Positions 2,742-21,073 of a stretch of 25,196 nucleotides of DNA are shown in pieces; position 1 is the stretch's first letter, and every line of letters starts with the position of its first letter. The position numbers and the translations under genes are program-made. Source of the DNA: a virus; the IMG/VR virus record IMGVR_UViG_3300044527_000953, positions 1 to 25,196 of that record. One strand, 5' to 3'. The notes under the pieces are model-generated. The model was not told the DNA's origin, did no database searches, and saw nothing but the letters and a program-made list of their open reading frames with translations.

Positions 2742-3458
2742 CTAGCCCCCTAAAACTTGACTTCCCCATTGTTTCGGAATTGTACCCGCTGCGATTTCCT
2801 GCCGCAAAGCAACTGCCATAAAAGGACGTTTTTGTATTCTTGCCCGGCGTACTCTTTTTAGAAGAGGCTTGTTCTTGTTGAACTTTTTCATCTTCTGCCA
2901 TTTACGCCTTGGCGGCGATCTTCTCGCCCCAAATTTCTTTTTACGCTTAGGCTTCGCCCTTTTTGCCGGGTTATTGTAAACCCCTTCTTTCCTCCATTCG
3001 TAGGTTACGTTTGGGGTGTCTTCGGGCTTCTCTTCTTTGATTTGTACCCCACCCCCAAATTCAAGAATCTGGGGTACAGTATTTCCCGCTGCAAGAACGG
3101 CACGATTGCCTTTCGTGGCTACGGGATGAGGCCCAACAACCAATTGCTCCATGTATTTATGGTATTCAAAATGGATGTTGCGTAGGGTCTTAAATTTCTC
3201 TCCTGCGGGTGCATGAACATGGGGTGGGCTTCCAGGGGTTGAAGGGCCTTTTCTTCGCAACAAAATGCGAGTTTGAGCCCTTCGGCGAATGAACGCACCC
3301 ACCCGCGACATTGCGGCGGCGTTCTTTTTGCCGATCATGGTAATGACTTTTGCCCGGTCAAAAAACAATCTTTCGACTCGCAAATGGGGTCGAAAGTTTT
3401 TACCGAGGTTTTTAAACGGTCTTAAAGACTTCGGTACTTTGTTTTTAAACCAAGTCAT
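2742..3458 (-). CDS. HK97 gp10-like tail completion/morphogenesis protein
   Basis: A 238-aa, strongly basic protein. The central pattern is TPGSPPHVHAPAG, then an induced strand with VVGPHPV, then a QILEFGGG segment, and finally QKRPFMAVALRQEI near the C-terminus. This order (SPPxxH, VVGP, LEFGG, RPFMxxAL) is characteristic of the HK97 gp10-like/phage virion morphogenesis family that closes the tail or joins it to the head. An inserted Lys/Arg-rich block (about residues 165-210) is longer than in typical members and could bind nucleic acid or be a flexible arm. The ATG overlaps the end of the frameshifted chaperone reading frame by 14 nt, so its translation is probably coupled to frameshifted ribosomes. 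Placement between chaperone and tape measure is less usual than next to the connector genes. Confidence 0.6.
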   Translation of the reverse strand: MTWFKNKVPKSLRPFKNLGKNFRPHLRVERLFFDRAKVITMIGKKNAAAMSRVGAFIRRRAQTRILLRRKGPSTPGSPPHVHAPAGEKFKTLRNIHFEYHKYMEQLVVGPHPVATKGNRAVLAAGNTVPQILEFGGGVQIKEEKPEDTPNVTYEWRKEGVYNNPAKRAKPKRKKKFGARRSPPRRKWQKMKKFNKNKPLLKRVRRARIQKRPFMAVALRQEIAAGTIPKQWGSQVLGG

Positions 3459-4217
3459 TTTTGATTCTATCCATCGGAATCATATCGATTTTTACTTCAC
3501 CCCTGCGTTTCATGGATTCATAACGTCTTGATACCGAAGAAGTGAATTCCTCGACCGACATTTTGGCTACCATTTTTTTGCGGTATGGATTTAGATCGAT
3601 AGGACGAATTGGCTTGGAACTTAACGCTGCGACAACAACCGCTGACCGGTCAAAATCAAACGCTAATCTTTGTTTGGCCGAAAAGACAAGTTCTCGATAC
3701 GTGTAGTTCCAGGGTTCTATTCCGATGATTGCTGCGCAAGCAAAGATATCTCGCCAGATGCTACCCGAGCTAGATTTATGTCTATTTCTCTTTCTTTTCT
3801 TTCGAGTTCTTTTTCGATTGCTATCTGTACTTTCGGATCGAGCAGTTTCTTGGTTTTCTTTTCCTCCACCAACATCGCTAGCTCCCTCGACCGTTTCACC
3901 ACGGTTTGCATTGCGTTTTGACCTACGTTTCGGAAAAAATTTTCCAATCCCGAAACCATCGCCTCCATTGCTTCAGAGAATTTTCCATCCTCCTTGACAA
4001 GACAATCCAAGAAGTCTTCAACGGAAGTGTTGTTTGCCTGAATCTGCGGCAAGCAGAATTCAGAAATTAAATCGAATTGACTCATTAAGTTGGAAAACAA
4101 CATTTCGTATTTCTTGGCATCAAAAATATCGATGCCTGCCGCTTTTAGGCGGCGGGCATCGCTTACCAAGAACAGAAACTTGTAGTTGTGTTCCCCGATT
4201 TTTACTGTGCTAGTCAT
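3445..4217 (-). CDS. Tail assembly chaperone, -1 frameshift fusion (gpGT-like)
   Basis: Predicted 257-aa fusion: codons from ATG 4217 to the Phe codon ending at 3933, then a -1 shift re-reading base 3933 and continuing to TAA at 3445-3447. The first 95 residues equal the short chaperone. The 162-residue extension begins with a hydrophilic Arg/Ser/Lys linker (PKRRSKRNANRG onward) and then a conserved-looking domain with IEPWNYTYRELVFSAKQR, matching the W-x-Y-T-x-REL pattern common in gpT-like extensions. The extension has no plausible start codon of its own near its beginning. Its stop overlaps the ATG of the next gene. Lambda gpG/gpGT is the model: both products coat the tape measure during tail tube polymerisation and are absent from the virion. 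The frameshift itself is inferred. Confidence 0.75.
3717..4217 (-). CDS. Tail assembly chaperone, unshifted form (gpG-like)
   Basis: The zero-frame product has 166 aa, beginning MTSTVKIGEHNYKFLFLVSD. It lies between the tail tube gene and the tape measure, the standard chaperone position. The N-terminal half is a small alpha/beta domain (an EHNYKFLF strand followed by helices). Residues 110-150 in this frame are a Lys/Glu-rich helix. The true family-conserved part is probably limited to the first 95 residues, before the slippery site, because the alternative frame after it carries the gpT-like domain. The ATG at 4217 has only a weak AGGT upstream at 13 nt. The family is diverse, so the call rests mainly on position and the frameshift architecture. 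Confidence 0.75.
   Translation of the reverse strand: MTSTVKIGEHNYKFLFLVSDARRLKAAGIDIFDAKKYEMLFSNLMSQFDLISEFCLPQIQANNTSVEDFLDCLVKEDGKFSEAMEAMVSGLENFFRNVGQNAMQTVVKRSRELAMLVEEKKTKKLLDPKVQIAIEKELERKEREIDINLARVASGEISLLAQQSSE
3933..3939 (-). promoter_or_regulatory. Programmed -1 ribosomal frameshift site
   Basis: On the minus strand the codons are AAT TTT TTC CGA, giving the heptamer T TTT TTC, a canonical X XXY YYZ slippery sequence. Both P- and A-site tRNA-Phe can re-pair with UUU after a -1 slip. The -1 frame is open from here to 3445. A small 5-bp hairpin (ACCGT with ACGGT, 6-nt loop) lies about 35 nt downstream, too far to be a convincing stimulator. Confidence 0.7.
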
Positions 4218-6588: not shown

Positions 6589-7542
6589 TTATTGTCGGGC
6601 TTGGCGAGCTTCAGTCATATTCGAAGCAAATTTGCGTTTGCCCTCACCCTTGTTGGTCGTTTCCAACCCGCCGGATTCACCAAGCGAATTGCGAAATGCC
6701 GACAATTGGGTTTGAAGATTGGCAAGCTCTTGATTCTTCGATTCGATATCGGATTTCAATTGCTTGATAAATTCACTTTGGGCATCTGTAAACGACAAAC
6801 CTTTTTGGAAAAGATTTGCCCCTACAGCATCGCCAAAGCTCTCGGTGAACTTCTTCAGTTCGTTGCGAACCAAGGCCAAAGCATCTTCGGTTGAAGGTTC
6901 AGGAGTGGACAAAACCGCTGGTTTCGTCTGTTCTTCGGTATTTTCAGTTTTTGACACTGGAATGTCACCTTTAAAAGAGAAATTGAATTGACGGGACATT
7001 CTCGTTTCCGTCTTCCCGTCATAACCATATGGACAGATCGCACAACCGCGAATTGTCCATTTTCGCACCACAACACCAGGGCCTGCAAATTGTTGATTGT
7101 TGACCAAAGTAGTTGTGTCTTCAGGAATGTATTCCATTTCGGCTTCGTCAAAATAGATAGAAGCTTCCAGGGGTACACCATGCTTTTTCCACTGGATGAT
7201 TTTGTCGGCTTGATCGCCCTTTTCCAAGGAAATCAACTTGCCCGATAACATCAAACCTTCTTCGGTGGTTTCTTGCTTATCCGCATACCCCACCAAAACA
7301 TCGTTGTTGTGATTCCAATCGAGGGTGATGGTATCTTTGTGCTTGAAGAAACCTTCCATATCGTGAACGATATTTCCCCACCACCAATGGTAAAGCGGGT
7401 TTGGCGTTCTAGCCAAAAGCTCGACGTTATGGGATTCGCCTTCTTGATCGTTGGACATAAGTTTCGCAGTTAATACGAAAGCATCTGCCGGCGGTTTAGA
7501 AAGCTTATCAAGTGGAATCGGCATCGGTTTCGGTGTCGTCAT
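6589..7542 (-). CDS. Prohead maturation protease fused to scaffold
   Basis: A 317-aa protein. Residues 20-185 form a serine protease domain of the herpesvirus-assemblin/HK97 prohead type: His78 in the LDWNHN segment followed by GYADKQETTEEGLMLSGKL, and Ser128 in the PLEASIYFD segment. The H/S arrangement and spacing match the family. Residues about 215-290 are a charged, heptad-like helix (LKSDIESKNQELANLQTQL), the expected delta/scaffold domain, followed by a basic tail (GKRKFASNMTEARQARQ). The enzyme is expected to assemble inside procapsids, cleave scaffold and itself, and exit. The gene overlaps the portal end by 35 nt. I kept ATG 7542, although its Shine-Dalgarno is weak and an ATG six codons in is possible. 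Cys167 and Cys170 sit just after the protease core. Confidence 0.85.
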   Translation of the reverse strand: MTTPKPMPIPLDKLSKPPADAFVLTAKLMSNDQEGESHNVELLARTPNPLYHWWWGNIVHDMEGFFKHKDTITLDWNHNNDVLVGYADKQETTEEGLMLSGKLISLEKGDQADKIIQWKKHGVPLEASIYFDEAEMEYIPEDTTTLVNNQQFAGPGVVVRKWTIRGCAICPYGYDGKTETRMSRQFNFSFKGDIPVSKTENTEEQTKPAVLSTPEPSTEDALALVRNELKKFTESFGDAVGANLFQKGLSFTDAQSEFIKQLKSDIESKNQELANLQTQLSAFRNSLGESGGLETTNKGEGKRKFASNMTEARQARQ

Positions 7543-9001
7543 TATCTACTTCTACTACAGTATTGGGTTCGGGAGCACCAACAGGATCAAACGATAAAAT
7601 GATTGGCCGGCCTAAAACTTGTTTTCCAACGTCTTCGGCATGTTTCATTACTTCGGCAAGCTCATTGATATTTTGGAAAATATCACCTCGCCCACGTTCT
7701 TTAGTGATTCGAATAGGTGAATCTAAACCGCTTGCAATTGCGGATAGATCGCCTTTGATTTCCTTAGAGTTATCAAACCAAGGAGTACCAATAGGAACCC
7801 ATTCAAATAAAGCATCTTCGATAGTGAAACCCGAAGGCAATGTTATTTCACCGTCTAAGATACCTTGCGTCAATCTAAAAATCGTCCATCTTCGGCGTAA
7901 TTCAATTTGATCGTCCCGCTTATCCATGCAAGATCGATCATATTGCAACCAACTACCACGACTACCGCTGTAGTTGGTATGCGATTCGTCAAAGAAGCTA
8001 TAGGGTATATCTAAAGCTTTCAACGAAACCATAATCATTAAACGCGAAAATGTTTGCAACTCATTAGAAGGATTTTTTGATTCAATAACGTCTATTTTTT
8101 CGCCAACGTCTAGGTCTAAAACTGAAGGGCCGTTAGAAAGGTCAATCTTCCGTGGTTCTTGTTCTTTAACAGGGCAATCTTCTAAATGCCCACTTTCGCT
8201 TGGATTGGTATTGTTTGGATCGCCAAACATTTCTTCCATCGGGCTTGCTTCCGCTTCCCGCATAATCGCCATAAGAAATAGCTGCGAAACCTTTGATTTG
8301 ATAAGTGAGTAATCAAAGTTTTCGTACAAATCTCTTAAAGGGTTTAATGATGCAACGACCGGACTTACACCACGTTTTTGCTCGGTACTTGCTTTATCAA
8401 AAAACCCATAAAGATATAGGTTGCGAGCGTTGACCCGTTTAGAGAAAACCGAACCAGAACCAGTCGGATTTCTTTTGTGCAACGAGTATTCTAACGGTCG
8501 CCCAAAACCGTTAGATCGGACACCCGCAACCCATTGTTCCCCGTCCAAAACATCATCTTCGGCAGGATCAGAAATCAAGTCTTGTTGGATACTCTGACAA
8601 CGACCGTCCCGCAAAAACAAAATGCCAACGTCCCCATCAATGCAACGTCTAGCCTCGATATGCCGGAAAAATTTTTCCCTTCCAAAACGTCCTGATACAT
8701 CCATGTAATCAGGACGCGATATTTTTTCCATCCATTTTTCGAGTTCGACGTTAAACGCTTTATCAACCGTTTTCGCTTGGAACCGAAACTTGGAGACATA
8801 ATCCAAATGCCGGCGGATCATCCAAGCAAACACTGAAAAGTTTTGGACTAGATCGGTAGAGTTTGCGGCAAGTTGGTTTCGTTTTTTGCCGGATAGTGAT
8901 TTGTCCACGGTGGTAATCGTAGACAATACGGATTTCCTACGCCCCTTGGGCTCAAGGGCATCCCATCCAAACTTTTTGGTGATTGAATCTAGCCACTTCA
9001 T
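7508..9001 (-). CDS. Phage portal protein, lambda family
   Basis: A 497-aa protein with the expected length for a lambda-type portal. The N-terminal third has VQNFSVFAWMIRRHLDYVSKFRFQ, matching the 'NN.i....v...v..vvG...' helix of lambda-family portals, followed by a helix with LEKWMEKISRPDYMDVSGRFGREKFFRHIEARRCIDGD, the wing region. Later, EKIDVIESKNPSNELQTFSRLMIMVSLKALDIPYSFF and YSGSRGSWLQYDRS correspond to the family's 'g......p..p...y.......lr.iAa.lgiPye.l..D....nYSs.R' block. It forms the dodecameric DNA channel at the unique capsid vertex and docks terminase. Its neighbours, gpW-like connector and protease, follow lambda order W-B-C. Confidence 0.88.
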   Translation of the reverse strand: MKWLDSITKKFGWDALEPKGRRKSVLSTITTVDKSLSGKKRNQLAANSTDLVQNFSVFAWMIRRHLDYVSKFRFQAKTVDKAFNVELEKWMEKISRPDYMDVSGRFGREKFFRHIEARRCIDGDVGILFLRDGRCQSIQQDLISDPAEDDVLDGEQWVAGVRSNGFGRPLEYSLHKRNPTGSGSVFSKRVNARNLYLYGFFDKASTEQKRGVSPVVASLNPLRDLYENFDYSLIKSKVSQLFLMAIMREAEASPMEEMFGDPNNTNPSESGHLEDCPVKEQEPRKIDLSNGPSVLDLDVGEKIDVIESKNPSNELQTFSRLMIMVSLKALDIPYSFFDESHTNYSGSRGSWLQYDRSCMDKRDDQIELRRRWTIFRLTQGILDGEITLPSGFTIEDALFEWVPIGTPWFDNSKEIKGDLSAIASGLDSPIRITKERGRGDIFQNINELAEVMKHAEDVGKQVLGRPIILSFDPVGAPEPNTVVEVDNDDTETDADST

Positions 9002-9003
9002 TT

Positions 9004-9204
9004 TTAGTTGCCCAATCCAGAAATTCCGTAAGCCCCGCCTCTTCGTCGCTTCCCTGGCAATTGCGATTCTAAATCCTTAATTTGCTTTTGGATTAGATCG
9101 GGGCGGAAGGAAACGTTCACCCCATCGACATTGACGTTCGACACGCCAAGGTTGAGGATTGCTTGGAGCCGTTCAATTTTTTGTCGGATTTCGTTCGGTG
9201 TCAT
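9004..9204 (-). CDS. Head-tail joining protein, gpW-like
   Basis: A 66-aa protein close in size to lambda gpW (68 aa). Helix 1 is PNEIRQKIERLQAILNLG, then a short hairpin (VSNVNVDGVNVSFR), then helix 2 (PDLIQKQIKDLESQL) and a basic Gly/Arg-rich tail (GKRRRGGAYGISGLGN). This helix-beta hairpin-helix layout is that of gpW, which fills the portal bottom after packaging. It lies immediately before the portal gene, as gpW does. GGAG lies 12 nt before ATG 9204. Confidence 0.75.
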   Translation of the reverse strand: MTPNEIRQKIERLQAILNLGVSNVNVDGVNVSFRPDLIQKQIKDLESQLPGKRRRGGAYGISGLGN

Positions 9205-9213
9205 AACGATATA

Positions 9214-9507
9214 CTACTCCAAGCCAATTTCCGAATCGTTGCTAGATTGTTTAAAAGTGGTTTTATCTATCCCACTTTCCAAAATGCGATTTTCGTAAAA
9301 CATATCGCGGCGATGCTGACCACAATTTTTACAGCAACATGCCCGCCATACAACATGAGTAGCGGGATTACCCTTAATATCTTGGGAAATTTTGGTTTCG
9401 TGCATGGAACGATATCCGGTACGTTCCGTACTACCACACTTTTTACAGCGTGACAATATAACGTCTGCTTGGTCGTATTTGCGATTGGGAATGCCTTTTC
9501 GGGTCAT
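9214..9507 (-). CDS. Zinc-ribbon protein between terminase and connector genes
   Basis: A 97-aa protein with two knuckles: Cys21-x2-Cys24 and Cys59-x2-Cys62 (the latter preceded by Cys57 and Cys58), separated by a beta-rich segment. This is a treble-clef or zinc-ribbon arrangement, so structural zinc binding is likely. There is no HNH motif. The start overlaps the terminase stop as ATGA, and the gpW-like gene follows 9 nt after its stop, so it is co-expressed with packaging genes. A role in packaging or transcription (small phage zinc ribbons may act in either) is possible but unproven. I do not recognise the family. Confidence 0.7.
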   Translation of the reverse strand: MTRKGIPNRKYDQADVILSRCKKCGSTERTGYRSMHETKISQDIKGNPATHVVWRACCCKNCGQHRRDMFYENRILESGIDKTTFKQSSNDSEIGLE

Positions 9508-11564
9508 ATCTTGAGTTCCGTTTTCCTTCGCAGTTTCTTTTGGCTAGGTTGCCTTTTTGGGGCAAACATAGCTTCTTTGAGTTTAGCCCCACAAGCCGAA
9601 GCCAACATAAAACATCCAACCGCTGCGTCAAAATAATGTTGATCGGGCTTGCTTATGGGAAGCTTCCAAATATCTATTTCTTTTCCATTCCCACTTGGAT
9701 CGCGTACCGGTTTCTCAACTCGATAATGCTCTGAAATCAGTTTGTGCTGACCGGCAAATCGAGGCTTGAATAAAACGTAAGAGCCTTTATCCCCAATTGC
9801 AGTAGATAGCCTAGCATGAAAAAACGTCTTCCAATAGTTTGTGTTGTAGATCATATGCCTACCACCGCCTTCAGTTGGTCGAACGATCCAATTATTCCCC
9901 TTCCGTTCTCCCGGCTTCTTTTGCCACTCTTCCATCGGCTTGTCGGAAGCTTTTAAGCCGCGTCCGAAACATGGCATTAAAATTGCGTTTAACGGATGTT
10001 CTAGGCAAACGGATTGAATGGTTTGCGTAACAGGCCCCCATGCGGCATCGATCCCAATAGCTTTTACTTTTTGAGTCCTGCCGCTTGTTCCAACTGGAAA
10101 AACACGTTGCCCAATGATGGTAAGTAAATCCCATAATGCTTTTCGTATTTTCCCCTCCAAGCCGAGTTTCGGATACTTCTTAGATAATTTAACGCGGGCA
10201 TTTCGTAGCGTGAAATTGGATTGGGGTTGTTCCGGTACAGTGCCGTAATCAACAAGCCAGCAGTCAAAAGATTCACTATTGAAAGCGATAATTTTCCAAA
10301 ATAGCAATTCGCCTTGAACGTCGATAAAGGCGGTTAGGGTATCAGCATAGGGGGGACAATCCCCTTGGATAAATCCCGATACCTTTTTCATAATATCGCT
10401 TGATTCAAGCAAATCTAAAGATAGCGTTTCGGTTTGTGGTTCGTTTTGGTATTCTGCATCAAACGTTGCTGGATACCGATGTTTCAATTCCATTGCATGT
10501 TGGATTGCGGATAACTCACCACGCTTTTTTCGGTATCGCTGCTCCCATGACACAACAGCCCCATCATCCATCGCCAAACGGTTATCGTGGTAAAATTTAG
10601 TCGCCGCCATAAAACCATCATCGGAACGAATGGAAAAATACTGCTCCCACAAGGCTTGATTGGTTGGAAAATCATAAATCAATTTGCAACGATATCCTCT
10701 CCATTCGGGATTGGCTTCGTTGTCTAAAAGTTGATCGGCCAAATCCCCTTTTTTGATAACCGTTACCAGGGCAAAACCGGCAATGGACTCATCTGGGCCG
10801 GCAAGGCCCATAACGGCCCCGTTGACAAGTTCCATTCGGGTATCTGTCTGTGAATCGGATGCAGCAGATTTATCCGTTTGAGGGTCATCGAGGATGAATA
10901 GATCGGGGCGTATAAGTTCTCCATCGGGAGTTGTGTATTGGCAACCACGGATACCACCTTGAAGCCCGAAGACTTCAAAGATCGCCGCGTCACGGCGACC
11001 GGGTATAGTAGCTAAAACGATTTGCGATCCCGTCCATTCGATATGGGTTTGTTTGCCGTTACAGATTTGCCCATGCGACTTTTGCCCCTTTCCTTCCAGT
11101 TTGCGGATAGGGTGGGTGACTTCAGGGAATAGCCAATGAAGCATTTCGTTAGTTTCAAGATCGCGTTTCAAATTGGCTAGCAAACGTGAAGCCTTTTTCT
11201 TATCCGCACCAATAAGCACCACGTAGCGATTATGCCCACTTAGAACGGCCCATAAACACGCAACTACGGCAAGGGCTGTTTTGCCATGCCCTCGGGGCAT
11301 GGCAAGAGCAAACGTTGAACCGTTGCGAATCGAATCCTCGATTTCACGAATGGCAAAAATGTGATCGTCTGACCACGCTAAACGAAACCGTCTAGGAAAG
11401 CATATTTCACAAAATGCTTTTAAAGATTCCACAACGGTTTGGCGTAAATCGTCATCTCCGCATTCGGGAATGGGGGCGATATCGCGACCTTCGGCACTCT
11501 GTACCGCTTGCCGTTTTCGCTCCCGTTCTTTCCTACGTTGATAGGCTTCTAGGGTTTCACTCAA
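9504..11564 (-). CDS. terL: Terminase large subunit
   Basis: A 686-aa packaging motor ATPase/nuclease that cuts concatemers and pumps DNA through the portal. The ATPase core has Walker A at residues 90-96 (PRGHGKT, K95, T96) and Walker B at 222-227 (LFILDD). The C-terminal half has RNase H-like nuclease candidates: D415 in TAFIDVQG, D506 in AIGIDAAWG, and D646 in HYFDAAVG. The architecture resembles GpA-type large terminases. The start is TTG 11564, overlapping the upstream gene's stop by 8 nt. AGGT about 9 nt upstream supports it, and no ATG lies near the N-terminus before Walker A. No small terminase gene is seen in this window. Confidence 0.88.
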   Translation of the reverse strand: MSETLEAYQRRKERERKRQAVQSAEGRDIAPIPECGDDDLRQTVVESLKAFCEICFPRRFRLAWSDDHIFAIREIEDSIRNGSTFALAMPRGHGKTALAVVACLWAVLSGHNRYVVLIGADKKKASRLLANLKRDLETNEMLHWLFPEVTHPIRKLEGKGQKSHGQICNGKQTHIEWTGSQIVLATIPGRRDAAIFEVFGLQGGIRGCQYTTPDGELIRPDLFILDDPQTDKSAASDSQTDTRMELVNGAVMGLAGPDESIAGFALVTVIKKGDLADQLLDNEANPEWRGYRCKLIYDFPTNQALWEQYFSIRSDDGFMAATKFYHDNRLAMDDGAVVSWEQRYRKKRGELSAIQHAMELKHRYPATFDAEYQNEPQTETLSLDLLESSDIMKKVSGFIQGDCPPYADTLTAFIDVQGELLFWKIIAFNSESFDCWLVDYGTVPEQPQSNFTLRNARVKLSKKYPKLGLEGKIRKALWDLLTIIGQRVFPVGTSGRTQKVKAIGIDAAWGPVTQTIQSVCLEHPLNAILMPCFGRGLKASDKPMEEWQKKPGERKGNNWIVRPTEGGGRHMIYNTNYWKTFFHARLSTAIGDKGSYVLFKPRFAGQHKLISEHYRVEKPVRDPSGNGKEIDIWKLPISKPDQHYFDAAVGCFMLASACGAKLKEAMFAPKRQPSQKKLRRKTELKI

Positions 11565-15797: not shown

Positions 15798-16097
15798 CTA
15801 TTGAGGCAATACGTCTGGAATCTGAAGTTGCTGAACAAGTGCCGCTTGTTGTTCCGGCGTTAGAGAATCAAACATCTGCAAAGCAGACTTCTTTTTGTGT
15901 TCAACAAGTTGCTGGTAGTACGAATCGCAAGCTGACTTGAAGATCATTTCAGCGTAGCTTGCATCGGTGAATAGTGGCTTAGGTTCTTCACCTTCCGGCA
16001 GGGCTTCGTTTGCTGCCTGGATAGGTGCGTTGGCTTGCAGTACAACAAACTGCAAACCCCAGAGTTGTTCTTGCGTAAGTTTGGAAAGATCGATCAT
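15798..16097 (-). CDS. Small helical hypothetical protein
   Basis: A 99-aa acidic, helical, soluble protein beginning MIDLSKLTQEQLWGLQFVV. It has helices around LTQEQLWGLQFVVLQANAPI, SYAEMIFKSACDSYYQQLVE and LTPEQQAALVQQLQIPDVLP. Similar ~100-residue helical proteins ('...ACDSYY...') occur next to fibre genes of other phages, so a fibre-associated assembly role is possible but not proven. It starts with an ATGA overlap with the preceding gene and stops 10 nt before the fibre ATG. No membrane segment or known catalytic motif. Confidence 0.65.
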   Translation of the reverse strand: MIDLSKLTQEQLWGLQFVVLQANAPIQAANEALPEGEEPKPLFTDASYAEMIFKSACDSYYQQLVEHKKKSALQMFDSLTPEQQAALVQQLQIPDVLPQ

Positions 16098-16339
16098 TGT
16101 CTGTTCCCCGTATGCCTACAACCTTCGGCTTTAATAAACATTTTTAAATCGTCTAATTCACTTCTCCTGAATTCACGTTCTTCACGAAGCGTATCAGAAA
16201 ATTTGTCAGTGATTTTTTCCATTGTTGACGAATGTTTATCCGTCAACCTTGGAATGAGAATCGCAGTATTATGGTATAAATACCAAATTAAACAGCCCGT
16301 TATGCCGAGGCTACTGCAAAGCGATACGATCAAATCCAT
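16094..16339 (-). CDS. Single-TM, coiled-coil protein, possible holin or spanin-like
   Basis: An 81-aa protein with an N-terminal membrane segment (LIVSLCSSLGITGCLIWYLYHNTAIL, about residues 3-28), then a charged helix (DKFSDTLREEREFRRSELDDLKMF) likely to be a coiled coil, and a short Cys-containing tail. The topology, one N-terminal TM plus soluble helix, resembles BhlA/UviB-type small holins or inner spanins. Context (near a peptidase and other small membrane proteins) favours lysis. The family is not firmly recognised. It overlaps the next gene as ATGA and follows the secreted peptide gene by 8 nt. Confidence 0.6.
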   Translation of the reverse strand: MDLIVSLCSSLGITGCLIWYLYHNTAILIPRLTDKHSSTMEKITDKFSDTLREEREFRRSELDDLKMFIKAEGCRHTGNRQ

Positions 16340-16347
16340 TTCACACC

Positions 16348-16578
16348 TTAACGAAACAGTCTTCGGAAAAATGTACGCAATGGCTTTTTGGTTCTAATCT
16401 GTTTAGTGAAATTGATAGGGGCCTTAGCAACGGCAACGGGAGCCTTCACAACAACTTCAGCCGTTTGCACAACTTCAGCCGGCAAATTGCATACACCATT
16501 TTTGCAATCTTGGGCTGAAGCTCCACTACCAATAACCACCAAAGAAACTGCAACCAACAAAAGCGTCATCCGTTTCAT
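16348..16578 (-). CDS. Secreted cysteine-motif peptide with basic tail
   Basis: A 76-aa precursor. The N-terminus has a clean Sec signal peptide: MKRMTLLLVAVSLVVIGSGASA, with likely cleavage after Ala22 (ASA|QD). The mature ~54 residues begin QDCKNGVCNL, giving Cys26 and Cys30 in a CxNGxC motif able to form a disulfide or bind a metal, then a Val/Ala/Pro stretch (EVVQTAEVVVKAPVAVAKAP) and a strongly basic C-terminus (IRTKKPLRTFFRRLFR). I associate the NGxC start plus Arg-rich tail with small secreted planctomycete proteins, but this is from memory. AAAGGTG lies 4 nt before ATG 16578. It might act on the host envelope during lysis or be a moron. Function unknown. Confidence 0.7.
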   Translation of the reverse strand: MKRMTLLLVAVSLVVIGSGASAQDCKNGVCNLPAEVVQTAEVVVKAPVAVAKAPINFTKQIRTKKPLRTFFRRLFR

Positions 16579-16587
16579 AATACACCT

Positions 16588-17385
16588 TTAAGCCACACTA
16601 AATAAACCATCAACCCTATCCGAAACACCTCGAATAAGGAAAAACTGGTGATATTGCACCGTCTTTCGTAAATGCCGATCCCAAGTCAAACGACACCTAC
16701 CCCCGTCCCCCCAGTTTATACCCCAAGTTTGTGGTTGGTCAAAGACGAAACGGTTCCCATCCCAAATACAATCATCGACGGAAACTGAATGGTTTCCGAC
16801 TCCATTGGATTCGCCGGCAATGCCGTTGGAATCTAAGCGGGAATAACTTTGCGAAGCGTGAACGGCAACAACAGCAATAAACCCGTTGCTAAGTCCATCG
16901 GCAAGTTCCAATTCCGTTTTCGCTTCCAAGCATTCGTGAGCGATGAAATTTTTGGCATCTTGTTTAGCTTCTTCCGAAATACGATTCAGAAGATAAGTTT
17001 CATGCTGAACAAACTCTTCACGGCAAGCCCCATGAGACATTAAGAACCGCATTCCATCATCAAGCGTGGAGCCTCGATCCAATCCACCATTGATATTGGC
17101 ATAAACAAATTCACCGGATAAATGAACTTCGGGAAGCCCACTTAAATAGATAATTCGACTTAGCGATCCAGCACAAGCATATCCGTTACATGAGCCACGA
17201 TTACCTTGATTGCGAACCCATTTATCACCAAACAAATCTCTTGCCCGCCACTTCGCCTTTAGGCGAGCAATAACGTCATCTTTTTTGATAACGTATTTTG
17301 ACGCATACGATTGACAAGCGAACGAAACACGTTTTTCAGGAAGCAATAAACCAGTGTGATAATGCCCAAGAATCTCGTACATCAT
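16588..17385 (-). CDS. Papain-like (C1) cysteine peptidase, Asn replaced by Gln
   Basis: A 265-aa protein. The papain-type signature is QGNRGSCNGYACAG: Gln60 (oxyanion hole) and Cys66 (nucleophile). His199 lies in a NHSVSVDD block, and a QTWGINWGDGG segment corresponds to papain's NSWGTGWG. In that alignment the catalytic Asn (papain 175) is Gln219 here. Length fits the mature C1 fold. No signal peptide or propeptide is seen, so export would need a holin. The gene is flanked by small membrane proteins and coupled to the previous gene by an ATGA overlap, so a lysis role (endolysin replacement or envelope protein hydrolase) is inferred. Activity is uncertain given the substitution. A maturation protease is an alternative. 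Confidence 0.75.
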   Translation of the reverse strand: MMYEILGHYHTGLLLPEKRVSFACQSYASKYVIKKDDVIARLKAKWRARDLFGDKWVRNQGNRGSCNGYACAGSLSRIIYLSGLPEVHLSGEFVYANINGGLDRGSTLDDGMRFLMSHGACREEFVQHETYLLNRISEEAKQDAKNFIAHECLEAKTELELADGLSNGFIAVVAVHASQSYSRLDSNGIAGESNGVGNHSVSVDDCIWDGNRFVFDQPQTWGINWGDGGRCRLTWDRHLRKTVQYHQFFLIRGVSDRVDGLFSVA

Positions 17386-17819
17386 TTAATCCATTTTGAA
17401 ATGATTGCATTGGCATCTTCTATAGTAGAAGGTGCGGGGCCAAAATCGACCACTTTCAGTTTTACGTCCTGCCCACCGGTTGTTGGAAAACCAACGACAT
17501 AGGCGGGGCGTGTATTGCCGACTACTTTTAAAAAACTTTCGGCTTCCTTCTGCTCCTCATCATAAATTCGAAAATTGACTCCATTCTTTCGCAGCGATTC
17601 CCGCCACTGAGGATTGTTGATAACAGAATTATATCCGGAGTAGGCTTCACCACCTCGTTCATCGAATTCTTCCACAAAAATCAGCCAACCGTCTGGATTC
17701 TTCTGCGTAAAGAAGTCTATTTGCCAATCGGTTTTAATCAGCAACAAACCGCCGGCAATCATCAACAGAGGAGCCAACCAAAGGGCTTTAGGCTTTTTTT
17801 GTGCCGAGATTTGCGACAT
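17382..17819 (-). CDS. Membrane-anchored protein, possible thioredoxin-like fold
   Basis: A 145-aa protein starting MSQISAQKKPKALWLAPLLM. One TM segment (LWLAPLLMIAGGLLLI) is followed by a soluble domain: WLIFVEEFDERGG, a helix with NPQWRESLRKNG, then VNFRIYDEEQKEAESFLKVVGNTRPAYVVG and a C-terminal helix. The strand-helix-strand-helix pattern and the 'TRPAYVV' segment suggest a thioredoxin-like fold, but there is no CxxC pair, so it is not a redox enzyme. A TTG start at 17861 is also open but lies deeper in the previous gene; ATG 17819 already overlaps it by 32 nt. It sits in the lysis-like cluster before the peptidase. Function unknown. Confidence 0.6.
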   Translation of the reverse strand: MSQISAQKKPKALWLAPLLMIAGGLLLIKTDWQIDFFTQKNPDGWLIFVEEFDERGGEAYSGYNSVINNPQWRESLRKNGVNFRIYDEEQKEAESFLKVVGNTRPAYVVGFPTTGGQDVKLKVVDFGPAPSTIEDANAIISKWIK

Positions 17820-18033
17820 AGGATTGGCCGGCTTTCCGCAAATGATCTTTGCAATCTTCAAGTTCCGTTTGTGAAATCAATTTGGCAATCGACCCAATGA
17901 AATCCGCCGGGTCTACTTCAACCGCAACGGATTGTGGTTGATTAGCCTTTCGTGCGGCAAACCATTGGAAAATCTGGTATGCCGCAACCAAAGCACCACC
18001 TGAAAGTAAAATGTAACCAGCAACTTCGTTCAT
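17788..18033 (-). CDS. Small single-TM protein
   Basis: An 81-aa protein with an N-terminal hydrophobic segment (VAGYILLSGGALVAAYQIFQWF) and a soluble tail containing VDPADFIGSIAKLISQTELE and DCKDHLRKAGQSYV. It overlaps its upstream neighbour as ATGA and its downstream neighbour by about 30 nt. The pattern (one TM, no lysine-rich tail, conserved small size) is compatible with an antiholin or accessory lysis protein. I do not recognise the family. Confidence 0.6.
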   Translation of the reverse strand: MNEVAGYILLSGGALVAAYQIFQWFAARKANQPQSVAVEVDPADFIGSIAKLISQTELEDCKDHLRKAGQSYVANLGTKKA

Positions 18034-18278
18034 AGCTCGATATCCGGCATCGCGTCTTCATCAACAATATCCGGTGGGGTATCGACTCCACCATCTAACC
18101 ATTGTTGGATAAAGAACATCGCCAATTGAAGTAGTAGGGACATTAGGATAGGGTTGATACCCAACTTGCCCGCTTCAGCCCGAACGATTGATTCGGCTTT
18201 GTCTTTATCCTTGCCCGACCGGATGAACGCAAAACGTGCAAGTTTGTAGGCTCTTAATTTCCAAAGTTTCGTCAACAT
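18030..18278 (-). CDS. Small basic-then-hydrophobic protein
   Basis: An 82-aa protein. The first 40 residues are basic and helical (KLWKLRAYKLARFAFIRSGK, then KDKAESIVRAEAGKLG), then a hydrophobic helix (INPILMSLLLQLAMFFIQQWL), then an acidic tail (DTPPDIVDEDAMPDIEL). Start ATG 18278 overlaps the previous TAA by one base (TAATG), and the stop overlaps the next ATG (ATGA). It may associate with membrane via the hydrophobic helix. No family recognised; lysis-cassette context only. Confidence 0.6.
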   Translation of the reverse strand: MLTKLWKLRAYKLARFAFIRSGKDKDKAESIVRAEAGKLGINPILMSLLLQLAMFFIQQWLDGGVDTPPDIVDEDAMPDIEL

Positions 18279-18487
18279 TATTTTAACCTAGCACCTTTTT
18301 GTATCGCATTGACCACAACCCCGAGAAGACTAGCAACAGCCGCCATAACAGGGCCTTGCGATTCCAGCGAAGGTATCAATACGGAAGTTGCAAACGTCAG
18401 AAGGAAAGAGGAAAAGGCAATCAAAAATGATTTACCAATACTTTTCCAAAACTCTTCCGACCCTAAAATTTTCATTATTGAATTCAT
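18278..18487 (-). CDS. Candidate holin, two membrane segments
   Basis: A 69-aa protein and the first gene of the leftward operon. It has two predicted TM helices, about residues 20-39 (SFLIAFSSFLLTFATSVLIP) and 46-62 (PVMAAVASLLGVVVNAI), a short loop between them, and a basic tail ending KGARLK. Size, two TMs and a cationic end are the pattern of small class II holins. The charged N-terminus (LGSEEFWKSIGK) could be cytoplasmic. GGGGG lies 4-5 nt before the ATG. Being first after the control region it should be expressed earliest of this operon. Membership is by topology; no homology is claimed. Confidence 0.6.
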   Translation of the reverse strand: MNSIMKILGSEEFWKSIGKSFLIAFSSFLLTFATSVLIPSLESQGPVMAAVASLLGVVVNAIQKGARLK

Positions 18488-18509
18488 AAAACCCCCAGGA
18501 AAACAACAA

Positions 18510-18538
18510 ATCTAACAAAATTTTTCAAGATCGACAAA
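18510..18538 (-). promoter_or_regulatory. Leftward promoter for late operon
   Basis: On the minus strand a -35 TTGTCG (18533-18538) and a -10 TAGATT (18510-18515) are separated by 17 bp. Matches to TTGACA/TATAAT are 4/6 and 4/6, so it is moderate. It lies 23 nt from the first leftward ATG (18487) and its -35 falls inside the palindrome, so binding there could block it. Confidence 0.45.
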
Positions 18539-18552
18539 CTTTTTCGACGATC
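18530..18552. promoter_or_regulatory. 23-bp imperfect palindrome, candidate operator
   Basis: The two arms GATCG and CGATC frame a central CAAACTTTTCG-type core; 8 of 11 half-site positions pair around the central T. It lies between the divergent promoters, overlapping the leftward -35 and ending 4 bp from the rightward -35. The HTH protein encoded immediately to the right is the obvious candidate ligand; host factors are possible. Confidence 0.45.
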
Positions 18553-18556
18553 CCTA

Positions 18557-18585
18557 TTGAGATTTATTTCCCAATTGTGTAAAAT
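18557..18585 (+). promoter_or_regulatory. Rightward promoter producing leaderless early mRNA
   Basis: TTGAGA (18557-18562), 17-bp spacer, TAAAAT (18580-18585): 5/6 and 5/6 matches to sigma-70 consensus. The start codon of the next gene is 6 bp after the -10, so the transcript would begin at or within a base or two of the A of ATG 18592, leaving no room for a Shine-Dalgarno. Confidence 0.6.
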
Positions 18586-18591
18586 CCCTGC

Positions 18592-18810
18592 ATGAACGTG
18601 ATATCCATTCCCGATTTTTGCAAAAAGTTTAAGGTGAATCGATCAACGGTTTACCGGTGGCGGGGACGAAAAGCCGCCCAAGGGGTTTTCGTTTTGGTTG
18701 GGAATAGATATTTCATCGCGGAGGAGAAAGCGGAGTCGTTTGCCGCTTTAGTGAAGAATGTTCGTCGTGGTAATCCTGTTTGGGGGAAAATGAATGAAGA
18801 TCGAAATTGA
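18592..18810 (+). CDS. Small HTH (MerR/excisionase-like) DNA-binding protein
   Basis: A 72-aa protein, first of the rightward operon. MNVISIPDFCKKFKVNRSTV then YRWRGR forms a helix-turn-helix: an 'IPDFCKKFKVNRSTVYRW' recognition segment like the MerR/excisionase superfamily ('vkevAeLlgVSrsTVYrw'), followed by a wing-like strand (GVFVLVGNRYFI) and a final helix. It has no separate ligand domain. It could repress the divergent promoters at the palindrome or serve as an excisionase or replication initiator. No integrase is seen here. Its ATG is placed by the ultra-short leader, and it overlaps the next gene by 17 nt. Confidence 0.7.
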   Translation: MNVISIPDFCKKFKVNRSTVYRWRGRKAAQGVFVLVGNRYFIAEEKAESFAALVKNVRRGNPVWGKMNEDRN

Positions 18811-19201
18811 GTTTGAAAGCAGAGAAGATTTGCAAAAGCAAATCGCGGAATTGCTTGGGGCATCTTTGAAAACGGAAGTATCGGCAACAACAGAAGCCGT
18901 AGAAACCGTGGGTGAGCTAACCCAGTCACGCGGAAGGGGGCGACCACCGAAGGAAAAAGTGGTTGAGAAGAAACCGGAACCGGTAAAAGAAGAACCTAAA
19001 CCCGAACCGCCTATCGTGGATATCGGTTTCGATGAACCATCACCCCAAGTAACTTTGGAAGATTTTAAGAAAGCATTCCAGGTTGCGGTTGCTAGCAAGG
19101 GTGTTGACCATTGCCGAAAAGTGCTTGCCGAATTCGGCGTACAAAAAGCAACGGAAATTCAACCTGATAACTACGCGAAGGTGATGGAAAAGCTGAAATG
19201 A
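18794..19201 (+). CDS. AT-hook protein with C-terminal helical domain
   Basis: A 135-aa protein. The N-terminal strand-helix (MKIEIEFESREDLQKQIAEL) is followed by an AT-hook-like core, residues 46-53 (RGRGRPPK), a long Pro/Glu/Lys linker (EKKPEPVKEEPKPEPP), and a C-terminal helical domain (TLEDFKKAFQVAVASKG, VLAEFGVQKATEI). The C-terminal domain resembles the small 'ltledvr.a....a...G......ll..fGa..v..l.pe.y' domain that often follows flexible linkers in phage accessory replication proteins. Minor-groove DNA binding is inferred. GGGGG 7 nt upstream supports ATG 18794; it overlaps the HTH gene end and couples to the nuclease by ATGA. Confidence 0.65.
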   Translation: MKIEIEFESREDLQKQIAELLGASLKTEVSATTEAVETVGELTQSRGRGRPPKEKVVEKKPEPVKEEPKPEPPIVDIGFDEPSPQVTLEDFKKAFQVAVASKGVDHCRKVLAEFGVQKATEIQPDNYAKVMEKLK

Positions 19202-20325
19202 GCGACGAAAAATTTCACTACCGAATTAGCCCGAGTGCAACTAGCCGTATTGAGAAATGCCCAGGTTCTTTACGGTTAAGCGATGGTGTGCCGAGCAAAT
19301 CAAGCAAGTATGCCGACGAAGGCACTTTGGCTCATTCGGTGGGTGAGATTGCGTTGCGAACCGGTGAGGCTCCAAAACACGATAGCCCTGAAATAGTTGA
19401 AGCAATAACGCACTACGTTCAGTTTTGCCGATCCATTCTGTATTCCAATTTGGTGGTGGACTATGCCGTGGAATACCGAAGCGAACACGCCACCATTTCG
19501 GGGTTTGGCGGGACGGTAGACTTTTTTTGCATCTATGAAGAAGACAGCAAAAAAGTCTTGCATATTGTGGACTACAAGCATGGGGCCGGCGTATTTGTTA
19601 GCGAAAAGAAAAATCGACAACTAATGAGCTACGCGGCAATTTGCTTATCCAATCATGCCAATATCGGTATTGAAAAAGTGGTTATGTCGATTGTTCAGCC
19701 AAGGGCCAAAGATTGCCAAGAGCCAATTCGAACTTGGGAGTGCTCTGTTGAAGAGATTCTGATTTGGGAAACCGAATTGCAAAATGCGATTGCCAAGAAT
19801 GATTTGGTAACGGGCGATCATTGCCGATGGTGTCCAGCGAAGCTCTTGTGTCCTGCAATTCGTGATGTTGCTTTTCAAGCAGCACAAACAGAATTTGAAG
19901 TCATTCGAACGACAAAAGATGAAAAGGTAATTGAAGATCAAGTGGGGTGGTTGCTGGAATTAGACCGAATGAGTTCAGCAATCAAATCCGTTCTTGAAGA
20001 GGTACGTCCTACGCTGTTATGGCTTATGCAACAAGGTACAAAAATACCGGAAATGAAAGCCGTAAAAGCATTCAGTAATAGATCATGGGGGGTGTCCGAT
20101 GAAGAATTAAAATCATTTTTCCAAAACGCTGGTTTGCAGGAATCGGATTACATGGAGTCCGAATTTATTTCGCCGGCAAAAGCTGAAAAGTTGTTGGGCG
20201 TAGGCACGATTGATTCCCTCACAAAGAGACGGGAAACGGGTTTGCGAGTCGTGCCGGCAAGTGAAAAAGGTGAACCCGTAAATTTAGATGTTTTTAGTGA
20301 CAACAGTTTCGATTCTATTTGGTAA
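19198..20325 (+). CDS. DUF2800 RecB/Cas4-like PD-(D/E)xK nuclease
   Basis: A 375-aa protein of the DUF2800 family, a Cas4/RecB-like exonuclease. Motif I is EGTLAHSVGE (H46, E50). The catalytic core GGTVDFF (D108) is followed by HIVDYKHGAGV (D125, K127), then KKNRQLMSYA (Q141), matching PD-(D/E)xK geometry. Cysteines C21 and C209-x2-C212-x5-C218 are arranged like the Cas4/AddB-type Fe-S cluster (one N-terminal, three C-terminal). The expected role is 5'-3' or end-processing in phage recombination-dependent replication with the adjacent ssDNA-binding protein. ATGA overlap with the AT-hook gene. Length is typical of the family. High confidence. Confidence 0.88.
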   Translation: MSDEKFHYRISPSATSRIEKCPGSLRLSDGVPSKSSKYADEGTLAHSVGEIALRTGEAPKHDSPEIVEAITHYVQFCRSILYSNLVVDYAVEYRSEHATISGFGGTVDFFCIYEEDSKKVLHIVDYKHGAGVFVSEKKNRQLMSYAAICLSNHANIGIEKVVMSIVQPRAKDCQEPIRTWECSVEEILIWETELQNAIAKNDLVTGDHCRWCPAKLLCPAIRDVAFQAAQTEFEVIRTTKDEKVIEDQVGWLLELDRMSSAIKSVLEEVRPTLLWLMQQGTKIPEMKAVKAFSNRSWGVSDEELKSFFQNAGLQESDYMESEFISPAKAEKLLGVGTIDSLTKRRETGLRVVPASEKGEPVNLDVFSDNSFDSIW

Positions 20326-20342
20326 AAAGGTAATCTAGCAAT

Positions 20343-20879
20343 ATGGCTAACATTTCCCCTATCGGTCGCGTTTCTTATCCTAACGTTTTTGAGCCTAACC
20401 AATACGAGCAAAATGAGCCCAAATTTCAGATAACTTTGCTCTTTGACAAAAACGATCCAGGTTTAGAAGAGATGAAACGTTTGGCATCTAACGCGGTCAA
20501 AGAAAAATGGCCTAATGGAGCCCCGAAGAATCTTCGAAACCCTTTCCGTTCCGGCGATGAAAAATTCGAGGAATCGGGCAAGGGTGAAGAATATAAGGGC
20601 AAGGTTTTCATCCGTTTCCAGTGTGCGGCAGATCGGCCCCCGCAGATCGTTGGCCCTGATAAACGCGTTATTACTGCTGCTAGCGGGCAGTTCTATCCAG
20701 GCTGTTTTGCACGCGTCAGTTACACAATTTACGCTTATCAAAAAGGCGGAAATTGCGGAGTTGCATTTGGCCTTTGCAACATCCAGAAAACCGGCGAGGG
20801 GGATGCGTTCGACAACCGCACCTCTGCCGAACATGACTTCGATGTTGTCGCAACTCAAGATGGGGACTTTGGATTCTAA
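20343..20879 (+). CDS. DUF2815 single-strand DNA-binding protein
   Basis: A 178-aa protein of the DUF2815 family, an OB-fold ssDNA-binding protein usually encoded beside DUF2800. Conserved features: VSYPNVFEPNQYEQNEPKFQ near the N-terminus, then ITLLFDKNDP, a Lys/Arg-rich middle (NLRNPFRSGDEKFEES), GKVFIRFQCAADRPPQIVGP, and YPGCFARVSYTIYAYQKGGNCG followed by acidic DFDVVATQDGDFGF at the C-terminus. An acidic C-terminal tail is common to SSBs for partner binding. It likely coats exposed strands during recombination/replication with the nuclease and polymerase. AAAAAGG lies 12 nt upstream. Confidence 0.85.
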   Translation: MANISPIGRVSYPNVFEPNQYEQNEPKFQITLLFDKNDPGLEEMKRLASNAVKEKWPNGAPKNLRNPFRSGDEKFEESGKGEEYKGKVFIRFQCAADRPPQIVGPDKRVITAASGQFYPGCFARVSYTIYAYQKGGNCGVAFGLCNIQKTGEGDAFDNRTSAEHDFDVVATQDGDFGF

Positions 20880-21073
20880 TGCTGAAGAAAAACGAGATTT
20901 TTGCCGCAGCGTCGAAAATTGCCGACACCAAAGGTACAAAGATCAACGCGGCGGAAACATCGCGGGTTTGCAAGAGCCTGTTCGAAGCAATTCGAACAGG
21001 TATCGAGCAAGAGAAATTTACTATGTCCGATGCGTTCGTCTTTTTTGTCAAAGAGATTGAAGGCTCAAAGTAA
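20879..21073 (+). CDS. Half-length HU-like protein
   Basis: A 64-aa protein: LKKNEIFAAASKIADTKG, then INAAETSRVCKSLFEAIRTG, then FTMSDAFVFFVKEIEGSK. The helix-helix plus short strand layout and 'k.eI..a.......s..a.......e.i...l..g..v.l..fg.f' pattern match the N-terminal dimerisation half of HU/IHF proteins. The DNA-clamping beta arms are absent, as HU is about 90 aa. Start is coupled to the SSB stop by TAATG. It may form a dominant-negative or partner for host HU, or be a different small helical protein. Similarity is judged by eye, so this is tentative. Confidence 0.5.
   Translation: MLKKNEIFAAASKIADTKGTKINAAETSRVCKSLFEAIRTGIEQEKFTMSDAFVFFVKEIEGSK

Follow-up and report, generated by a model that had tools for sequence, protein, structure and literature searches.

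A xylellain-type papain-fold peptidase encoded beside an exported thioredoxin-fold protein in a phage late operon: a candidate envelope-lysing enzyme

The late operon of the window, by which we mean the whole stretch of DNA analyzed here (a 25,196-bp linear virus record, itself a fragment), encodes near its head a protein that can be assigned with confidence, from its modeled structure, to the xylellain-type short bacterial C1A papain-fold peptidases. The gene directly follows one for an exported thioredoxin-fold protein, and the coordinates of both genes, the active-site codons and the neighboring genes are given in Table 1. Sequence and gene order make an envelope-lysing enzyme our leading reading of this peptidase, at a little under an even chance.

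Table 1. Positions of the peptidase gene, its active-site codons and its late-operon neighbors in the window
Feature	Position	Strand	Remark
Slot 1: 69-aa holin-like protein, two predicted TM segments; first late-operon gene	18278..18487	-	Homologue in L049
Slot 2: 82-aa protein, one TM segment	18030..18278	-	Homologous to the L049 and L050 slot (0/1000 shuffles)
Slot 3: 81-aa protein, N-terminal TM segment	17788..18033	-	Against L050 marginal (13/1000 shuffles); against L049 not significant
Slot 4 (partner): 145-aa N-terminally membrane-anchored thioredoxin-fold protein without CxxC	17382..17819	-	ATG at 17819
C1A (xylellain-type) papain-fold peptidase, 265 aa	16588..17385	-	No signal peptide or TM segment
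Gln60 codon CAA (papain oxyanion-hole Gln19)	17206..17208	-	Invariant in alignment A3
Cys66 codon TGT (nucleophile, equivalent to papain Cys25)	17188..17190	-	Invariant in alignment A3
His199 codon CAT (papain His159)	16789..16791	-	Invariant in alignment A3
Gln219 codon CAA (papain Asn175 position)	16729..16731	-	Asn in 36 of 42 distinct relatives
76-aa protein, N-terminal hydrophobic signal-like segment, CKNGVC motif	16348..16578	-	
81-aa protein, N-terminal TM segment, charged C-terminus	16094..16339	-	Spanin-like in shape only
Tail-fibre-like protein, 937 aa	12974-15787		Four genes downstream of the peptidase
Terminase large subunit	9504..11564	-	Follows the cassette in the late operon

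The peptidase gene is an intact open reading frame (17385..16588); the plus-strand reading of 16588-17385 is full of stops and was ruled out. As a single sequence, the protein matches zingipain/EP-B2 structures in the PDB over residues 55-236 (phmmer, E 4.5e-4 to 2e-3) and scores 18.1 bits against Pfam PF00112, below the gathering cut-off of 20.7, while a profile built from 17 phage relatives detects xylellain (PDB 3OIS) at 1.3e-23 together with 163 further PDB sequences at E<=1e-3. The AlphaFold (AF2) model (pLDDT 88.3, pTM 0.88) contains the left and right papain domains, and its 286 Foldseek matches in the PDB at E<=1e-3 are headed by C1 peptidases, with xylellain at the top (E 7e-13) and cathepsin and plant-papain structures next. 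Xylellain, a short bacterial C1A enzyme from Xylella fastidiosa with a papain domain and about 40 extra N-terminal residues, is therefore both the best structural and the best profile match; the offset between Gln60 and papain Gln19 likewise implies about 41 extra N-terminal residues, and the phage protein has no long I29 propeptide. It differs from xylellain in sequence (22% identity in the Foldseek alignment), in being a phage late-operon gene, in having Gln for Asn and in its thioredoxin-fold partner. The CHAP (PF05257) and NlpC/P60 (PF00877) profiles do not match the peptidase, and a GCK domain match (PF07802, E 0.002, under the cut-off) was discarded as a chance hit, the structure being papain throughout. 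An initial annotation, made from the sequence alone, had proposed that Gln60, Cys66 and His199 fit family C1 and had called for structure prediction with an alignment of the active site; the codons, the predicted fold, the family profile and the invariance of the three residues in alignment A3 all bear this proposal out.

Relatives of the peptidase are spread over very different phages. A single-sequence scan of IMG/VR viral contigs found none, and the first relative came from the 595-kb uncultured phage LR756511 (28% identity). The two-row alignment of this pair (A1) retrieved 21 viral contigs of 9.9 kb to 341 kb, and a repeat scan with a wider alignment added no contig. Altogether, the peptidase is carried by some 20 viral contigs, which are 10-600 kb long and differ in having unrelated terminases, and by prophages in Planctomycetia genomes. 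The nearest relatives share 40% (L048), 39% (L047 and L050) and 38% (L049) identity with the window protein, and the invariant columns comprise the catalytic Gln, Cys and His and an INGGRDAG-type motif. The closest viral structure in BFVD, compared by structure alone, is A0A6J5QDM8 (TM 0.86, 32% identity), annotated 'Peptidase C1A, papain C-terminal' in an uncultured Caudovirales phage; among the other BFVD matches are phage proteins that bear the names 'Peptidoglycan binding-like' and 'N acetylmuramidase'. A distant member, L067, has a Gly/Ala-rich N-terminal TM segment like those of signal-arrest-release endolysins. In each of two jumbo-phage contigs there is also a second C1 copy of divergent sequence (G020 57689-58336 and G021 119605-120249).

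The most constant feature of the phage loci is the partner gene. In 18 of 18 loci, an exported thioredoxin-fold protein is encoded immediately ahead of the peptidase, at a distance of -14 to +9 nt (in the window, the last 4 nt of the partner gene are shared with the start of the peptidase gene). Fewer than 18 of these cases are independent, because L047 nearly duplicates L050, and L058/L060 and the jumbo forms are closely related among themselves; the assignment in L057 was made by eye only. The AF2 model of the window partner has a pLDDT of 74 overall and mostly 74-93 within the domain, and nearly all of the Foldseek matches listed have the thioredoxin fold, at a probability near 1, although the best E is no lower than 1.3e-3. 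The CxxC motif is absent from the window partner and from 16 of the 17 others, and in the remaining one (L048) CxxC occurs only near an N-terminal lipobox-like segment. In some longer partners, the thioredoxin-like domain is preceded by a signal sequence, additional N-terminal sequence and a Pro-rich linker; profile comparison connects these with the short partners (P 1.9e-6, 3.2e-8 and 2.8e-17). In the Planctomycetia prophage L114, an exported thioredoxin with a WCSPC motif also follows the peptidase.

Other exported proteins occur nearby in related phages. In jumbo phages, a protein of 611-621 aa is encoded two genes after the peptidase (L002 7154-8989, L052 9291-11156 and L056 9375-11228), and the L002 copy contains a CxxCH motif. 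A contig that has no C1 gene, L004, encodes an exported 392-aa protein with CxxCH (3030-4208) and a trypsin-like protein (PF13365; 4303-5580) that includes a collagen-like stretch and ends in a segment which, by eye, looks thioredoxin-like. The latter lies upstream of a related terminase and near a gene (6654-7310) whose product resembles, by eye and with no Pfam match, a permuted NlpC/P60-like peptidase, which we regard as a lead only; the 4303-5580 gene may belong to an alternative envelope-protease module.

The late operon runs leftwards from 18487, with genes for proteins of 69, 82, 81 and 145 aa ahead of the peptidase and genes for proteins of 76, 81 and 99 aa, the 937-aa tail-fibre-like protein, terminase, portal, head protease, capsid and tape measure after it. 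Hydropathy analysis confirms that small membrane proteins surround the peptidase, as had been noted from the sequence, and neither Pfam nor PHROG gives a match that marks the small window genes as holin or spanin. For slots 1, 2 and 4, the window proteins have homologues in L049, L050 or both, and 0 of 1000 shuffles reached the observed score. Since the terminase and portal of L049 and L050 come from other families, the cassette evidently occurs in otherwise different phages. The late operon of phage lambda opens with S-R-Rz, in which genes for small membrane proteins and for a soluble enzyme precede the terminase, and the window cassette has the same order. The window differs from lambda in having no canonical endolysin and in having an exported thioredoxin-fold partner, and any holin or spanin roles in it are putative. 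No tRNA or Rfam element was found in the window, and sigma-70 promoter prediction gave no clear signal (2 sites against 4.2 expected). A simple motif check detected no Shine-Dalgarno-like sequence before the genes examined at 16000-20900 of the window, whereas such sequences precede genes in many of the related contigs, a contrast that may reflect the translation habits of the hosts.

Several lines of evidence point to Planctomycetota as the likely host of the window's phage. A member of the family (L068) lies in a metagenome-assembled genome (MAG) of the Pirellulales, an order within the Planctomycetia. C1 homologues at E<=1e-15 are no guide by themselves, as they occur in 34 of 398 Planctomycetia genomes and in 31 of 398 genomes of a control set, the phylum of a MAG labeled Proteobacteria, and a host assignment on that basis was dropped because the two proportions look alike. 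Strong matches separate the two sets: seven Planctomycetia genomes match at E<1e-45, whereas no control genome falls below 8e-29, and these matches, together with the prophage contexts, point to the Planctomycetia. Prophage-like loci with the peptidase are L108, L109 and L114, of which L114 is supported by Pfam matches to terminase and portal while L108 and L109 were recognized mainly by their gene layout; at least some of the strong matches (L110-L113) seem to be cellular genes and not prophages. A passage in PMC4432640 states that Planctomycetes have peptidoglycan, so either peptidoglycan or protein may be the substrate of the enzyme.

The initial annotation had also placed Gln219 at the position of papain Asn175, and the alignment of QTWG with NSWG is unambiguous on this point. 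The catalytic Gln, Cys and His are retained wherever aligned in 42 distinct relatives from phage contigs and bacterial genomes; one apparent exception, L067, proved to be an alignment slip, its sequence having His at that position. The third-residue column contains Asn in 36 of the 42, Gln only in the window protein, Leu in one (L100, the same gene as in L114), Gly in one (L098) and no aligned residue in three. The L114 peptidase (8635-9444), from a Planctomycetia prophage, has its Leu within YLDWG, another relaxed third residue. Every Asn codon differs from CAA in two or more bases, and a single sequencing error therefore cannot account for Gln219. In papain itself, the Asn175Gln exchange lowers activity only a few-fold, and the Gln triad of the window protein is a natural counterpart of such mutants. 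Asn175 is described as important yet non-essential in a passage of PMC8244254 (citing Vernet et al. 1995), and, according to a structural survey, the third residue of papain-like folds is asparagine, glutamine, aspartate or glutamate (PMC10318531). Thus, although the window protein has Gln219-Thr-Trp where the C1A family has Asn in an N-S-W motif, Gln219 lowers its agreement with the strict C1A consensus and not its membership of the papain-like enzymes. It is a minor, mechanistically mild variant and no mark of a new mechanism, and the sequence predicts an enzyme that is active through Cys66, His199 and Gln219, with Gln60 in the oxyanion hole.

The remaining question is what such an enzyme does for the phage. 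Against a lytic role, C1A enzymes usually cut proteins, whereas phages usually need peptidoglycan to be cut. The initial annotation had argued for an envelope-lysing role partly on the grounds that no other lytic enzyme is visible in the window, and indeed there is none by Pfam at E<=0.01 or among the best 25 of 36 PHROG families. Lytic families likewise have no Pfam match in two related records (G003 and G004) and are not among the 25 of 27 families listed for two more (G005 and G008). A set of 15 C1-bearing records, three of them jumbo contigs of 187-341 kb, contains no Amidase_2, SLT, phage lysozyme, CHAP or NlpC/P60, and in it peptidase M23 gives no match above the cut-off and a single sub-threshold one. 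This last match adjoins the C1 gene of a jumbo phage (G019, a 188 kb contig, C1:843-1016). The window and most of these contigs are fragments; moreover, G422, a 39-kb comparison phage that lacks the C1 gene, also shows no Pfam endolysin in the same scan, and divergent lysins may therefore escape Pfam. The missing endolysin is thus weak support, and we did not use it as strong evidence of function. Separately, G422 (L117/L118) has genes for an Erv1/Alr sulfhydryl-oxidase, an RF-1 domain protein and a putative phage metallopeptidase. A lytic role does agree with the gene order, which is lambda-like and conserved in related phages. Further hints in its favor are the Gly/Ala-rich N-terminal TM segment of L067 and the structural matches to phage proteins whose names refer to peptidoglycan binding and muramidase. 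Against it, the peptidase itself has no peptidoglycan-binding domain.

The main competing explanation is that the peptidase is active in the envelope or cytoplasm but takes no part in lysis, and instead processes co-encoded exported proteins or cuts host proteins in takeover or superinfection exclusion. The tightest conserved link of the gene is with the exported thioredoxin-fold protein and not with a holin, similar xylellain-type C1 enzymes are widespread in bacterial genomes, as the proportions in both genome sets at E<=1e-15 illustrate, and two jumbo-phage contigs have two C1 copies; such a protease, however, need not be encoded where the gene consistently lies in the window, L049 and L050, namely near the start of the late operon among genes for small membrane proteins, and we consider this explanation possible but less likely. 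A virion component, injected or tail-borne and acting at entry, might be suspected from the tail-fibre-like gene downstream and from L108, where the peptidase gene comes after tail-like genes. In the window and in L114, however, the peptidase lies ahead of the terminase and outside any tail-tip module, its partner and neighbors are small membrane or exported proteins, and no fusion to a tail domain was seen among the phage relatives, all of which makes a virion role unlikely.

Least probable is a decaying or inactive homologue in which Gln219 signals relaxed constraint. The restriction of Gln to the window member, and the Leu and Gly aligned in two other relatives, would fit such decay, but the frame is open, the Gln, Cys and His are intact, and so is the partner with its overlapping start; the tolerance of papain at Asn175 and the place of Gln among the canonical third residues argue the same way.

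Starting from the modeled fold, the catalytic residues, the adjacency of the partner and the late-operon head position, we infer the following possible course for an envelope-lysing peptidase. The enzyme, its partner and the small membrane proteins, including the holin-like one, would be made late in infection of a host that is probably a member of the Planctomycetota. The peptidase would build up in the cytoplasm and then cross a holin-like lesion into the periplasm, where the exported partner may hold it, stabilize it or keep it active. There, it might cleave peptide bonds of envelope proteins, peptidoglycan stems or both, and so contribute to lysis. In its broadest and more tentative form, the proposal is that tailed phages of Planctomycetota, from siphovirus-like phages of about 30 kb to jumbo phages of 600 kb and with packaging genes unrelated to each other, may share a two-gene lysis module made up of a C1A endolysin and a redox-dead thioredoxin-fold partner anchored in the membrane or periplasm.

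Papain-like folds are already represented among viral lysins. CHAP lysins are clan CA cysteine peptidases that cut cell-wall peptides, according to a passage in PMC10318531, and the reference list of the same survey includes the pseudomurein endoisopeptidases PeiW and PeiP, which are papain-fold phage lysins. CHAP, NlpC/P60 and PeiW/PeiP are different families, whereas the window peptidase has the C1 topology with a papain-like NSWG-type motif. The presence of xylellain-type C1A genes in tailed phages has also been reported: passages of a phylogenetic study describe the acquisition of such short bacterial genes by Myoviridae and Siphoviridae (PMC10380794), and the window peptidase is one of these Caudoviricetes genes. 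Those passages deal with neither function, gene neighborhood, a thioredoxin-fold partner nor phages of Planctomycetes. To this the present analysis adds an exported thioredoxin-fold partner that is conserved, a late-operon cassette that recurs between phages, a connection with prophages of Planctomycetia and the Gln variant.

A literature search on phage lysis of Planctomycetes returned nothing relevant, and the process appears to be unstudied in these bacteria, whose envelope is unusual; a conserved two-gene candidate makes the question directly testable. If the peptidase does lyse cells, C1A peptidases would join the phage lysins, and the two-gene module, if real, would represent a class of protease-based phage lysis not previously described. 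If it is not lytic, a widespread phage module of a protease and its partner remains, with no known role.
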